A stretch of DNA of 21,372 bases, from IMG/VR virus record IMGVR_UViG_3300033571_018606, positions 1-21,372 of that record; one strand, written 5' to 3'. Positions 10,890-21,372 of the stretch are shown here, in pieces. The notes below the pieces were generated by a model. The model saw nothing but the letters and a program-made list of their open reading frames with translations, was not told the DNA's origin and did no database searches. This DNA is from a virus. The position numbers were made by a program, and so were the translations under genes. How positions within the stretch are numbered: position 1 is the stretch's first letter; each line of letters starts with the position of its first letter.

Positions 10890-10901
10890 TTTTTATTCTT
10901 G

Positions 10902-10927
10902 GCAGGAGAGTGATGCCGCTCTCCTGC
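10902..10927 (+). terminator. Perfect 9-bp hairpin with 8-nt loop after the tail-hub gene
   Basis: GCAGGAGAG (10902-10910), loop TGATGCCG (10911-10918), CTCTCCTGC (10919-10927). Same stem and loop size as the hairpin at 8082-8107. The 3' flank is TTGCAATAC, so there is no U-run and strict intrinsic termination is doubtful. The loop is complementary over 7 nt to the loop of the hairpin at 14729-14758. Confidence 0.65.
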
Positions 10928-10956
10928 TTGCAATACAAATTAAATTTTAAATTATC

Positions 10957-11916
10957 ATGGGATTTGGAACTAAATTAAAAGGAGCTTTAGGATTAAGTGC
11001 TGGCCCAAAAGGTTCTTTCACTTCTGGTCAAGAACTTGTTAGACAGCAAGATAATCTTAATCGCTACAATATTAACTCAGCTTTTGGCTCAAGAAATTTT
11101 ACAACTGATGCCGGTGGTAGAAGTGTCTTAAATATTGAAGAGAGTCCTTATCAAAAAGCACTAAGAGGAATGCAGGAACAGCAAGCTTTAGATATTTTTG
11201 GCTCAAAAGCTCCTAGCGCTGAAGACTTTTTGCAACAAGGAAAAGATGTGAGCAACGCTTTGTATGAAAGCTCAATGTATAATTTGCGACCAGAATTTGC
11301 TTCACAAGATACAAATCTTACTGATTATTTAAGCAATCGAGGCATTCCTCTTAATTCAGATGCTTATAGAAAAGCTCTTAGCAGCTTAAGAAGAGATCGA
11401 GGTGGCCAGTTAAATCAATTAGGCTTACAAGCTACACTCGCTGGCGCTCAAGAACAAGATAGACTGGTCAGGCTTGCGGAATCTCAGAGAGCGGCAAGAC
11501 TGGCAGAGACTGGTAGCGCCACCCAAGGAATCGATCTTGGCCTATTTGGAGATGTTTCTGGTATTGATGCGGCCGGTATTATTTCTGGTCAAGAGGGAGC
11601 TTCAAATGCTTATAATTTAAGTAGATTCCAAGATTCTCAAGCTAGAAGAAGCAAAGCTGTAAATGAAACTATCAAGGGTGGAGCTACAGCAGCAGCAGCG
11701 CTTCTTTCTGATATAAATTTAAAAGAAAATATCAAAAAAACTGGACAAAAAAATGGTTTTAATATTTATGAATTTAATTACAAAGGCAAACCAGAGCGTT
11801 ACAGCGGTGTTATGGCTCAAGAAGTGCAGGAAATTATGCCCGAGGCAGTAGCCAACAAAGGTGACTTTTTGGCAGTATTTTACGATAAAATTGGTATCGA
11901 ATTTAAACAAATATAA
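10957..11916 (+). CDS. Helical virion protein with C-terminal S74 chaperone/peptidase domain (319 aa)
   Basis: Residues 1-245 are largely helical and Gln/Arg/Ala-rich (LVRQQDNLNRYNINSAFG, EQDRLVRLAESQRAARLAE), unlike a fibre. The last 69 residues are a short Peptidase_S74-type intramolecular chaperone: SDINLKENI (251-259) contains the conserved Ser-Asp where the family self-cleaves, NGFNIYEFNYKG follows, and GVMAQEVQEIMPEAV (284-298) is the second hallmark. Family members release the chaperone once the partner domain folds. The gene sits at the head of the three-gene group with the putative ejection proteins, so a role as a small internal or tail-assembly protein is likely. It ends 2 nt before the next gene. 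Confidence 0.72.
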   Translation: MGFGTKLKGALGLSAGPKGSFTSGQELVRQQDNLNRYNINSAFGSRNFTTDAGGRSVLNIEESPYQKALRGMQEQQALDIFGSKAPSAEDFLQQGKDVSNALYESSMYNLRPEFASQDTNLTDYLSNRGIPLNSDAYRKALSSLRRDRGGQLNQLGLQATLAGAQEQDRLVRLAESQRAARLAETGSATQGIDLGLFGDVSGIDAAGIISGQEGASNAYNLSRFQDSQARRSKAVNETIKGGATAAAALLSDINLKENIKKTGQKNGFNIYEFNYKGKPERYSGVMAQEVQEIMPEAVANKGDFLAVFYDKIGIEFKQI

Positions 11917-17986: not shown

Positions 17987-18178
17987 ATGTCAACCAACGA
18001 ATCACAAATTATTCCTTCTTGGCGCTTAGTTCACGATGGTGAAAAAGTTTTAGCCCTGCTATTTGCGTATGGAACTACTCAAACAAAATTTACTCTATTT
18101 GAGGCTAATACAAAAGAAGAATGTTTAGCGGAAATTGCTAGATTGAACTTGGAGTTTAACGCAGAGGAGTTTGAATAA
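17987..18178 (+). CDS. Small hypothetical protein (63 aa)
   Basis: A soluble, acidic-ended small protein (SWRLVHDGEKVLALLFAYG, then TKEECLAEIARLNLEFNAEE). It reads as a short antiparallel beta unit followed by one helix. It begins 6 nt after the receptor-binding protein and ends in a TAATG overlap with the first membrane protein of the lysis region, so it bridges the tail and lysis modules. The GAGGAG within its last codons serves as the ribosome site for the next gene. No domain recognised. Confidence 0.55.
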   Translation: MSTNESQIIPSWRLVHDGEKVLALLFAYGTTQTKFTLFEANTKEECLAEIARLNLEFNAEEFE

Positions 18179-18390
18179 TGCTTAACGCCCTTAAATTAAT
18201 TTTAGATTTTTTTTTAAAAAGCCAGCCAATTCAAAAGTCAATAGCTTATGGCATCAGAATATTTTGCATTATTGTTTCTATTTGCGTAGGTATTGGTGCT
18301 GGTGTTGCAACTTATGAGAAAATCAAGCAAGGCAAAGGATTATCTGATATTGTCGCTGAGGCAAAGGCTGTAATTCGTGAGGTAAAATAA
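18178..18390 (+). CDS. Small membrane protein, holin candidate (70 aa)
   Basis: One hydrophobic helix at about residues 24-46 (YGIRIFCIIVSICVGIGAGV) is flanked by an amphipathic N-terminus (LNALKLILDFFLKSQP) and a charged C-terminal helix (LSDIVAEAKAVIREVK). The start is TAATG-coupled to the previous gene, with a strong GAGGAG eight bases upstream, among the best ribosome sites here. Size, single membrane span and position at the head of the lysis region make it a holin or holin-partner candidate. The neighbouring 126-aa protein competes for that role. Confidence 0.6.
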   Translation: MLNALKLILDFFLKSQPIQKSIAYGIRIFCIIVSICVGIGAGVATYEKIKQGKGLSDIVAEAKAVIREVK

Positions 18391-18770
18391 TGGACACTAC
18401 TCTTTCTTTGCAACCATTGTTATTCTGGATATTTGGAATTGTTGGAGTTCTTGGAATTTACATTTTTAAAGATTTCAAAGAAAATACTTTGAATAGATTT
18501 GATAAAAATGAAAATTCAATAGAAAAACTTCAGGCCAATCGCACAGACAACGATAACAAAGTTATGCTTCTATCGCAATCAATAACTAATATGGTTTCTA
18601 AATTATCAGAATTAGAAGTTGATTTTAAAGAATACATGAGGTATTCGCAAAAAGCGTTAGAAAAACGGGAGGAATACCATTCTTACATTGAAAAGATTGC
18701 ATCAAATTTAATGACGCAAGATCAAATGAAAGAAATGCTGAGCAAGCTTGATAAAATAGCAAACAAATGA
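18390..18770 (+). CDS. Membrane-anchored coiled-coil protein in the lysis region (126 aa)
   Basis: An N-terminal membrane helix at about residues 9-27 (PLLFWIFGIVGVLGIYIF) is followed by roughly 95 residues of charged, heptad-like helix (NRFDKNENSIEKLQANRTD, MVSKLSELEVDFKEYMRYSQ). The gene overlaps the previous one by a single base (TAATG) and has GAGG before the start. It overlaps the i-spanin-like gene by 4 bp. This topology is frequent among phage lysis-cassette accessory proteins, including some pinholin partners. It could also span the periplasm. The exact role cannot be set from sequence. Confidence 0.6.
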   Translation: MDTTLSLQPLLFWIFGIVGVLGIYIFKDFKENTLNRFDKNENSIEKLQANRTDNDNKVMLLSQSITNMVSKLSELEVDFKEYMRYSQKALEKREEYHSYIEKIASNLMTQDQMKEMLSKLDKIANK

Positions 18771-19009
18771 TTAAATTCTTTAAGCCAATAGCCCTTGCTT
18801 TGTACACCCTAACTATTTTATTTGCTGGTAAAAATTGGGGTTCTTTAGGCAAGGAAGTTGAATGCCAAAAAACAGAAATTGTAAATCAAAATCAAAATGC
18901 AGAATCTATTGAAAAAGCTAAAAAAACTATTAACAAAATTAGCTCTATGCCTGATGATGCTATCTGGAGCGAGTTGTTCAAGAACTATTGCACAGACTGC
19001 AACAAATAG
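18767..19009 (+). CDS. Putative inner-membrane spanin subunit, Rz-like (80 aa)
   Basis: An N-terminal membrane anchor (FFKPIALALYTLTILFAG, residues 4-21) is followed by about 55 periplasmic residues with a helical Gln/Asn/Glu-rich section. The end, MPDDAIWSELFKNYCTDCNK, has the P-D-D, W-x-x-L and terminal basic/cysteine features I associate with small Rz-type proteins. Cysteines at 33, 75 and 78 might crosslink dimers. It is far shorter than lambda Rz (153 aa), so it would need a compact partner. The next gene begins inside it in another frame and carries a possible lipobox, an embedded Rz/Rz1-like arrangement. The call rests on architecture, not homology. Confidence 0.5.
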   Translation: MIKFFKPIALALYTLTILFAGKNWGSLGKEVECQKTEIVNQNQNAESIEKAKKTINKISSMPDDAIWSELFKNYCTDCNK

Positions 19010-19157
19010 CGACACTTGCAAAATAAACTACACGCAGATTTATTTTAATAAACAAGATAAAAAGATTATTGACGAAATAAACTCAAATGCAAAATATCGC
19101 CCAGTCATGCAAAAGCTTGGTAAAAACATTTTGACAAATTCTGAAGTTTTTAAATAA
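18897..19157 (+). CDS. Putative outer-membrane lipoprotein spanin, Rz1-like (86 aa)
   Basis: It begins inside the i-spanin-like gene in the +1 frame and overlaps it by 113 bp. The N-terminus is strongly basic, then hydrophobic (LLTKLALCLMMLSGASC). C27 could be lipidated, but the residue at -3 is Gly, where L, V or I is usual, so the lipobox is imperfect. The mature part, DTCKINYTQIYFNKQDKKI, fits a C-x-x-x-x-x-x-I-x-x-x-x-x-D pattern I recall from small phage lipoproteins, and no proline-rich segment is present. It ends in a TAATG overlap with the polytopic membrane protein. The pair would link inner and outer membranes in the last lysis step. Confidence 0.5.
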   Translation: MQNLLKKLKKLLTKLALCLMMLSGASCSRTIAQTATNSDTCKINYTQIYFNKQDKKIIDEINSNAKYRPVMQKLGKNILTNSEVFK

Positions 19158-19900
19158 TGCTAATTCTTCACTTCGCCAACATTTTATTCGTCACAATATC
19201 ATGCGCTTTTCTCAATAGATGGCGCGGCGGCTGGTTCGATAAATTTCAATTTAAAAATAAGATAGTTGAAAAAATTGTAACTTCCCAAACTTTCAGCCGA
19301 ACTCTAATCACCTTAATTTGCTGCTACTCAATTTTCTTTAATCTTGGCTTCCCAAGCATTTTAGAGGCATTAGCAATATTCCTTTTAGTGCTTTATTTTT
19401 CTTTAGTGGCAGGTTGGGGGACTTGGTTTAGCATCAAAGGCACCGATGGCTGGAAACATAATGTGGATGCTTTTTGGGTCGAAATATTAATGACTTGGAT
19501 TTCTGGCAAACATTGGATTCCAAAGGGCGAGAAGACCGTTAGAAGTGATTCATGGCTAGGACGCTTCACAATTGAGAAAAGCCCTAATGGTAGGGTTAGA
19601 AGTCAGGACTGGTACTTATTCTATAACTTCTTTGCAATGTCTTTGCGCGGCCTAGGATTTGGCGCAGTAATTACATTTATTTTCTGCTACTTAGAGCAAC
19701 CACATCCTTCGATGATACTTTTTTGCGCCATAAGTTACATGATGGGGCTTTGCTATTATATTTGGTATGATTTGAAAGAAAGCGGCGTTAATTTTCCAAG
19801 CTTTTTAGATGGAAATACGAAGCTTGGCGAGTTTCTTTATGGCGGGTTGATTTTAGGTGGAGGGCTTTATTTCTGCTCGTTTTTAGTGAGTATAAGCTAA
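19157..19900 (+). CDS. Polytopic membrane protein of unknown function in the lysis region (247 aa)
   Basis: About six hydrophobic helices: 1-18, two between 50 and 95, 155-178, 186-206 and 223-247. Between helices 1 and 2 is the basic motif NRWRGGWFDKF. A polar loop at about 95-150 contains KGTDGWKHNVDAFWVEI, ISGKHWIPKGEKT and SWLGRF; conserved Trp, His and Lys suggest a functional site. The start is TAATG-coupled to the o-spanin-like gene, placing it in the lysis operon. I recall proteins with an N-R-W-R-G-G motif in other phages but know no function. It might be a superinfection-exclusion or lysis-control protein. The downstream 155 nt is the unusual structured leader of the endolysin. Confidence 0.7.
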   Translation: MLILHFANILFVTISCAFLNRWRGGWFDKFQFKNKIVEKIVTSQTFSRTLITLICCYSIFFNLGFPSILEALAIFLLVLYFSLVAGWGTWFSIKGTDGWKHNVDAFWVEILMTWISGKHWIPKGEKTVRSDSWLGRFTIEKSPNGRVRSQDWYLFYNFFAMSLRGLGFGAVITFIFCYLEQPHPSMILFCAISYMMGLCYYIWYDLKESGVNFPSFLDGNTKLGEFLYGGLILGGGLYFCSFLVSIS

Positions 19901-19954
19901 AACTCTTGCATTTCTAAAAAACAATTCTATTTTGCCCTCAAGCATCCAGTCATG

Positions 19955-20047
19955 CTCAATTGAGTGCGCACTCACCGCCGCCCCAGTTACTAGCCCTTGG
20001 TTTACCTCATATTTTCCAAGGCTATTTCATGGGGCGGCATAGTTTTT
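19955..20047 (+). promoter_or_regulatory. Structured, GC-rich leader/attenuator-like element before the endolysin
   Basis: Overlapping palindromes CTCAATTGAG (19955-19964) and TGAGTGCGCACTCA (19961-19974, perfect 14 bp) are followed by a long hairpin. The outer stem is GCCGCCCCA (19977-19985) with TGGGGCGGC (20030-20038). The inner stem is TAGCCCTTGG (19991-20000) with CCAAGGCTA (20016-20024), carrying one bulged C around a 15-nt loop. The outer stem is followed by ATAGTTTTTATTTATTT, a T-rich run that ends at the endolysin ATG. This looks like an intrinsic terminator or attenuator controlling endolysin expression, or a structured translational leader. The two palindromes share TGAG/CTCA arms, so alternative folds are possible. 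Confidence 0.55.
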
Positions 20048-20055
20048 ATTTATTT

Positions 20056-20454
20056 ATGCCATCTTTCGGAAAAACATCTCAAGACAAATTAAATACTTGC
20101 CACCCTGATTTACAGCGTTTAATGAACGAAGTAATCAAGCTTTATGACTTTACTATACTTGAAGGCGAAAGAACGCTACAGCAGCAGCAAACTTATTTTA
20201 AAGAGGGTAAGTCCAAACTAGATGGAGTTAAGAAGAAATCTAAGCATCAAAACAAGCCCTCTTTAGCTGTTGACATTGCACCGTTTCCGATTGATTGGAA
20301 CGACACAAAAAGATTTTACTTCTTGGCTGGCTTAGTTATGGCTAAAGCTGACGAACTTGGAATTAAAATAAGATGGGGTGGAAGCTGGAATGGAAGCTTT
20401 GATTTTAAACAAAATAAGTTTGACGATTTAGTCCATTTTCAAATTGAATTGTAA
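20056..20454 (+). CDS. Endolysin, M15-family L-alanyl-D-glutamate-type peptidase (132 aa)
   Basis: A peptidoglycan-cleaving peptidase that cuts the peptide stem after the holin permits access. The N-terminus PSFGKTSQDKLNTCHPDLQR is the standard opening of this phage family. Zinc ligands are readable: H64 in SKHQNKPSLAVD, D73 in AVDIAPF, and H127 in DDLVHF. D123 or D124 is a candidate catalytic acid. RWGGSW (106-111) is also characteristic. I chose ATG 20056 because family members start here; ATG 20029 and TTG 19960 would put the structured leader inside the protein with no homologous residues. There is no signal peptide, so export depends on a holin. The length is normal. Confidence 0.9.
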   Translation: MPSFGKTSQDKLNTCHPDLQRLMNEVIKLYDFTILEGERTLQQQQTYFKEGKSKLDGVKKKSKHQNKPSLAVDIAPFPIDWNDTKRFYFLAGLVMAKADELGIKIRWGGSWNGSFDFKQNKFDDLVHFQIEL

Positions 20455-20471
20455 ATTATATCTTTACTTCT

Positions 20472-20509
20472 ATTTTGAGTTAAGTAATATTTAGTTTTTA
20501 ACTCAAAAT
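20472..20509 (+). terminator. 12-bp AT-rich hairpin between endolysin and HNH gene
   Basis: ATTTTGAGTTAA (20472-20483), a 14-nt loop, TTAACTCAAAAT (20498-20509), all twelve pairs perfect. It is 18 nt after the endolysin stop and 9 nt before the HNH start. It could end the lysis transcript or control the HNH gene, as homing endonuclease genes often carry repressive 5' hairpins. There is no clean T-run after it. Confidence 0.6.
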
Positions 20510-20517
20510 TAGTTTAT

Positions 20518-21099
20518 ATGGAAGTGTGGAAAGATATTAATGGCTACGAAGGAGATTACAAAGTTAGCAATACTGGTAAAGTATTTAGCATTAAAAGCGG
20601 AAAGGAGCTAAAAATAAGAAAACAATCCAATGGTAAATATTTCTGTGTAATTTTGTGTCGTCATGGATTTTTAAAAATGCATAGGGTTCATAGATTGGTA
20701 GCATTAAGCTTTATTCCAAACCCAGACAATAAAAGGCAGGTTAATCACAAAGATTGTAACTCTTTAAATAATAATGCGGATAATCTCGAATGGGCTACGG
20801 CATCCGAAAATTTAAAGCACGCTTTTAAATATGGTAGATTAAAACCTCCTAAGCCTTTTTTAGGAAAATTTGGTAAAGAGCACAACAGATCAAAGGGATT
20901 TTGGATTAGAGATTCCGCTGGCATTGGCTATTATAATAGCGGGTTAGAATTTTACAGAAAAACTGGCTTAGATCATACATGCATAAGCTACGGCAGAAAA
21001 TATATAGTTGACAAAAATTGCGACAAGTATGTTTTTAAAAAAGGCGCTATGAAAAATTTAATACTTTATCTTGAATATCCCATCAATCCCAAAAGATAA
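20518..21099 (+). CDS. NUMOD4/HNH free-standing homing endonuclease (193 aa)
   Basis: The N-terminus EVWKDINGYEGDYKVSNTGK (2-21) is a NUMOD4 DNA-binding motif. HRLVALSFIPNPDNKRQVNH (58-77) followed by KDCNSLNNNADNLEWA is the HNH_3 nuclease, with H77 and the N-N-x-x-x-N-L-E-W block intact. A Tyr/Lys-rich C-terminal part (YNSGLEFYRKTGL, then KYIVDKNCDKYVFKK) could be a second DNA-binding repeat. Such genes cut phage DNA lacking the gene and spread by repair. It is free-standing, not inside an intron, and sits at the strand-switch point beyond the lysis genes. A perfect AT hairpin lies just before the start. Confidence 0.9.
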   Translation: MEVWKDINGYEGDYKVSNTGKVFSIKSGKELKIRKQSNGKYFCVILCRHGFLKMHRVHRLVALSFIPNPDNKRQVNHKDCNSLNNNADNLEWATASENLKHAFKYGRLKPPKPFLGKFGKEHNRSKGFWIRDSAGIGYYNSGLEFYRKTGLDHTCISYGRKYIVDKNCDKYVFKKGAMKNLILYLEYPINPKR

Positions 21100-21131
21100 A
21101 TCTGGCAAACCTGAGAAATGGAAGCTAATTA

Positions 21132-21302
21132 TTACTTCTTAATCACCCAGCCATCCCTAGCCATAATATTGTAAAACGAATCAAGAGTTAATTCATCTTT
21201 AGCCCCACTCTCTTTAATGACGCTTACCGTTGCCGTGTGGTAAAACACTTTAAAAGTTTTGCCGTCTTTGCTGATGTAGATTTCAGTTTCGCCTTTTTTC
21301 AT
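21132..21302 (-). CDS. Small hypothetical protein on the opposite strand (56 aa)
   Basis: A complete minus-strand frame from ATG (complement of 21300-21302) to TAA. The product, MKKGETEIYISKDGKTFKVF to GWVIKK, is compact and charged, probably three strands and one helix (LTLDSFYNIMARDGW). The start is preceded by TTAGGTAAA, a weak but plausible ribosome site, and the upstream minus-strand frame stops 1 nt before it. It converges on the HNH gene with a 32-nt gap. No domain recognised. It is probably the 3' edge of an early or replication region transcribed leftwards. Confidence 0.6.
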   Translation of the reverse strand: MKKGETEIYISKDGKTFKVFYHTATVSVIKESGAKDELTLDSFYNIMARDGWVIKK

Positions 21303-21303
21303 T

Positions 21304-21372
21304 TTACCTAATTATCTGCTGGTTGATGTCGTTGTAATTATTGTCATAATTTCCAAACTTTTCTTTTCCCGC
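21304..21372 (-). CDS. 3' end of a minus-strand gene, truncated by the window edge
   Basis: An open frame of 22 codons enters from the right edge and ends in TAA 1 nt before the start of the 56-aa gene. The C-terminus reads AGKEKFGNYDNNYNDINQQI and then IR. The spacing supports it as the upstream partner in the same operon. An alternative frame over the same bases is also open, so the call is tentative. The product cannot be identified from 22 residues. Confidence 0.4.
   Translation of the reverse strand, partial: AGKEKFGNYDNNYNDINQQIIR

Follow-up and report, generated by a model that had tools for sequence, protein, structure and literature searches.

Phage lysis cassettes exchange horizontally and the endolysins that they encode are interchangeable; the timing of lysis is attributed mostly to holins. 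The locus described here resembles exchanged cassettes in that its lysis module occurs in unrelated phages, its last gene has been swapped and a gene for an HNH endonuclease lies adjacent, and it differs from them in that a non-coding leader has been retained while the gene downstream differs. The leader occupies an ORF-free stretch of 155 nt (19901-20055) in the window, by which we mean the whole 21,372-nucleotide stretch of viral DNA that was analysed, between an ORF for a membrane protein of 247 residues and the endolysin gene.

A structured leader ahead of phage lysis genes is reported also for mycobacteriophage Ms6, with a termination signal needed for lysis-gene expression and with two promoters (Garcia et al. 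2002, J Bacteriol 184:3034; cited in PMC5707550 and PMC3111421). Unlike that two-promoter arrangement, the present leader is placed within an operon, before its last gene, and lacks a strong promoter match; its T-run is offset from the stem, the spanin cassette is of Gram-negative type, and termination is putative. At most the leader would resemble the Ms6 mechanism; as its signature of termination falls short, we do not assign it to the Ms6 type. One candidate promoter at the left edge of the block (TTGCAT, 16 nt, TATTTT; 19906-19933) was read by eye and set aside as weak; a transcript starting there would cut stem-loop 1. Intrinsic (Rho-independent) terminators provide the other comparison. 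In both phages that carry the leader, a GC-rich stem is followed by a T-rich stretch, as in such terminators, but the hairpin has two tiers parted by an internal loop, its apical loop is large, ATAG precedes the T5 run, and the tail score is low.

Extent and fold of the leader

The original prediction, made from the letters alone, was confirmed in part: its hairpin, its palindromes and the length of the gap stood, its claim of GC richness survived in weaker form, and its T-rich run turned out not to abut the stem. The gap tops all spacings among the called ORFs of the window, although 631-780, at 150 nt, comes close. Local GC richness holds for 19960-20040 (53% GC, in the top 1.3%), whereas the gap overall is only mildly GC-rich: its GC content is 41.9%, that of the window 36.4%, and among the window's 155-nt stretches 15% match or exceed the gap. 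The perfect 14-bp palindrome TGAGTGCGCACTCA is present, as is the 10-bp palindrome CTCAATTGAG (19956-19965) that overlaps it. Two perfect palindromes of 14 bp were observed in the window against 2.1 expected by chance, and 29 of 10 bp against 29 expected.

The main hairpin, 62 nt in all, has an outer stem of nine pairs (GCCGCCCCA, 19977-19985, with TGGGGCGGC, 20030-20038), which a 5 x 5 internal loop joins to an inner stem carrying one bulge (19991-20000 with 20016-20024); the apical loop is large. When 19972-20049 is folded alone it reaches -32.5 kcal/mol, whereas its dinucleotide shuffles average -15.8 (z -6.4), none of the 200 shuffles equalling it, and in a scan of the window's 78-nt folds the hairpin ranks first on the + strand. 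The potential of this segment to fold is established. Alternative folds, which had been proposed from the overlapping arms, found no support: the pair probability of the outer stem is about 1.0 and that of the palindrome's own hairpin about 0.03, folding of the leader gave no rival structures that exclude each other at comparable energy, and about 15 kcal/mol is lost when the 5' arm is blocked. A riboswitch-like or protein-binding attenuator working through alternative folds is likewise not supported, the best alternative being weaker by that amount.

An intrinsic terminator or attenuator calls for a stable GC-rich hairpin, which is present here at the energy and z score just given and with its outer stem conserved, and for a T-run 0-2 nt behind the stem, which is absent here, since ATAG intervenes. 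The T-tail score is 2.67 when measured from the stem and 5.57 if the tail is set 4 nt later. A terminator scan, which also demands a short loop, did not report the hairpin, and a search of Rfam 15 with the leader returned nothing above the gathering score, the best match lying far below the cut-off. A second GC-rich intergenic hairpin (GCAGGAGAG/CTCTCCTGC), likewise with no adjoining T-run, lies at about 10901-10929 of the window, ahead of the gene at 10957.

Table 1. Coordinates of the leader, its elements and the neighbouring genes in the window.
Feature	Position	Strand	Remarks
Module genes for an Rz-like spanin (PHROG 1026) and, overlapping it, an Rz1-like lipoprotein	18767..19157	+	
Membrane protein gene (upstream), part of the module	19157..19900	+	protein of the relative 87% identical
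Conserved leader block, 143 nt	19906..20048	+	93% in UViG 3300042691_035711 at 11386-11525; flanks unlike on both sides
Stem-loop 1	19933..19970	+	helix 1 19933-19940/19961-19970; second helix 19941-19945/19952-19956
14-bp perfect palindrome TGAGTGCGCACTCA	19961..19974	.	same letters in the relative; frequency in the window equal to chance
Main hairpin	19977..20038	+	9-bp GC-rich outer stem (invariant), internal loop, inner stem (weaker in the relative)
T5 run	20043..20047	+	begins 4 nt past the stem
M15-type endolysin gene (PHROG 465)	20056..20454	+	homologues begin at the equivalent methionine
NUMOD4/HNH homing-type endonuclease gene	20518..21099	+	
DUF5675 3' remnant	21089..21148	+	88% identical to the relative; right edge of the gene replacement

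The lysis module in a second phage

A pattern search of IMG/VR with both stem arms returned 40 stretches, each of which was then read. Thirty-nine had only the common 9-bp arms, with unlike loops; the remaining one belongs to UViG 3300042691_035711, a phage of 48,794 bases with an identical 24 bases at each end and genes for a contractile tail. This is the sole true relative found. Searches of viral contigs with hairpin, loop and degenerate patterns recovered it alone, a search by way of the neighbouring proteins added no other relative, and no further copy of the leader came from blastn of phage and plasmid collections or from a pattern search of a collection of 84,980 genomes.

The head and tail families of the relative include a tail sheath, a baseplate wedge and a major head protein of PHROG 10, and the window has a portal, a capsid and a tail set with weak SU10 similarity, which are other families than those of the relative. 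DNA similarity between the two is limited to the lysis module (18175-19896, 19906-20048, 21089-21148 and 21136-21304), and therefore two otherwise unrelated phages hold one lysis module. The module is common to both at about 84%, spanning 18171-21304 of the window and 9508-12000 of the relative's locus L057, the head and tail genes being unrelated. The suggestion that the DNA had been acquired agrees with this distribution, but composition, on which the suggestion had been based, gives no such evidence.

Within the module, the hairpin part of the leader (19960-20048) shows 4 differences in 89 positions (95.5% identity), against about 84% for the genes at 18178-19900 (Fisher P 0.002 for a region picked after inspection); among 1631 coding stretches of that length, 26 (1.6%) are conserved to this degree. 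All nine pairs of the outer stem, 18 bases in total, are unaltered between the two phages, and the T5 run is present in both at an equal distance from the stem, while two of the nine inner-stem pairs are broken in the relative. From the end of the stem to the start codon there are 17 nt in the window (ATG 20056) and about 15 nt in the relative. Stem-loop 1 keeps helix 1 intact in the relative, with one pair lost and a loop of other length, and pair 19944:19953 has undergone a compensatory change, from A-U in the window to G-C in the relative. A single such change, between only two sequences, was reached by 263 of 500 shuffles and is not separable from chance, so that the comparison of pairs offers a hint of RNA structure, short of proof.

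Behind the leader the two phages differ. Homology ends at 20048, just past the T-run, and resumes in the final 18 codons of a DUF5675 gene, which in the relative fills the endolysin slot and of which the window retains, within 21089-21148, only those codons. This remnant suggests that, in the lineage of the window, a DUF5675 gene was for the most part supplanted by the endolysin and HNH genes, the leader staying put. The cassette at 20056-21148 looks like an endonuclease-linked gene replacement. The HNH reading frame terminates inside the DUF5675 remnant. Some phage homologues of the DUF5675 protein carry, over the stretch that matches, the annotation of a transpeptidase catalytic domain protein, and an enzymatic role for DUF5675 is putative, coming from such third-party labels; a sequence search of solved structures gave nothing usable for it.

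ATG 20056 is the likely start of the endolysin because its homologues share that methionine as their start. Ten homologues were considered for comparison of their leaders, which needs at least 100 nt upstream, and nine qualified (L046 was left out for having too little sequence). None of the nine M15 endolysins is preceded by an unusually stable leader, which argues that the leader was not carried along with the enzyme. The leader is part of the lysis module rather than of the endolysin.

Proposed attenuation and competing readings

The reading that we prefer, at a probability of roughly 0.4, is that of a cis-acting RNA leader in the end part of the lysis operon. The leader would sit between the spanin and membrane-protein genes and an exchangeable last gene, here the endolysin. 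Transcription of the operon would pass through it, the nascent RNA forming first stem-loop 1 and the main hairpin, a strong one, and the latter would reduce or time output of the last gene, most probably through leaky attenuation of transcription. With only 17 nt between stem and ATG, an endolysin transcript started upstream must traverse the hairpin. Three points are inferred: action of the leader at the level of RNA, a reduction of expression, and termination as the means. The leader's position, its conservation and its persistence despite different genes downstream are established, and the idea that it controls the endolysin gains from them: the block occupies the equivalent site of the module, the outer stem is kept, one pair is compensated, and another gene stands behind it in the relative. 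The attenuator part of the original prediction fared less well, since the terminator type is not demonstrated. The 4-nt offset of the T-run, the low tail score and the broken inner-stem pairs count against it, and the relative has a textbook terminator (GGAGGGGTTCGCCCCCTCCTTTTTT, L059 11788-11840), a hairpin followed directly by T6, after its major capsid gene, so that phages of this kind can make standard terminators.

The main rival, because most genes have no Shine-Dalgarno sequence, is that the hairpin works in translation or RNA processing, either by shutting off the mRNA of the operon, which would keep the AU-rich AUAGUUUUUAUUUAUUUAUG single-stranded for ribosomes to land on, or as a boundary of cleavage or stability. 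A clear Shine-Dalgarno match was found in few genes of the window and none for the endolysin, the spacing from stem to ATG is similar in both phages, the stem has no adjoining T-run, and the other intergenic hairpin built in this way also precedes a gene. A T5 run stands nonetheless at the same distance in both phages, and we regard this rival as unlikely.

Conservation might also be only apparent. A stretch of the module on the reverse strand, 21136-21304, is 95.9% identical, on par with the hairpin part, and identity along the module ranges from 75 to 96%; recent exchange of segments could therefore account for the hairpin's high identity, and the block would be a passive one with no current role that travelled with the lysis module. 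That palindromes occur at chance frequency and that a single relative is known agree with this. The hairpin is, however, the most structured stretch of the + strand, none of the 18 bases of its outer stem has changed, and neutral intergenic DNA is not expected to exceed adjacent genes in conservation, all of which renders a passive block improbable.

It is quite improbable that the palindromic DNA is a site of recombination or gene exchange, with 20048 as the left crossover of the endolysin and HNH cassette against DUF5675. Homology does end right past the T-run and resume in the DUF5675 codons, with the HNH gene within the differing part, but the boundary may equally be the start of the swapped gene, which is normal for any gene swap, and neither a recognition site nor a repeat was found at the right edge.

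Translation of the block itself would require a short frame through the hairpin; in the relative it would stop shortly ahead of the following gene, and in the window it would continue without a shift of frame into the endolysin. A frame from TTG 19960 is open in both phages, several of the differences fall at third positions, and the indel is of 3 nt. Two synonymous changes among four substitutions are nevertheless what chance would give (P 0.24), another frame scores equally, the frame has no start signal, and the extension is absent from endolysin homologues; a similar protein is absent from phages and plasmids, and a degenerate pattern returned the known relative only among viral contigs and nothing in the 84,980 genomes. 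We consider this very improbable. The chance that the block is one of the palindromic elements, repeated or mobile, found in Rickettsia genomes is negligible: it is a discrete palindromic block with sharp edges, but it occurs in a single copy per phage record, at the equivalent site in both phages, and searches of phages, plasmids and the genome collection returned no match to it.

A bolder form of the leader reading, which we hold as doubtful, is that the regulatory RNA would belong to the module, govern any lysis enzyme placed in the slot and stay through endonuclease-linked exchange of cassettes between unrelated phages. If a leader does set endolysin output and survives replacement of the enzyme, exchangeable lysis genes would plug into a fixed control element; the two phages supply a natural pair of constructs, one leader with two different genes behind it. 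In the relative, about 140 additional bases (L057 11246-11385) separate the membrane-protein gene from the leader, and two near-identical copies of ATCAAAGCTTATTATCA lie inside them.
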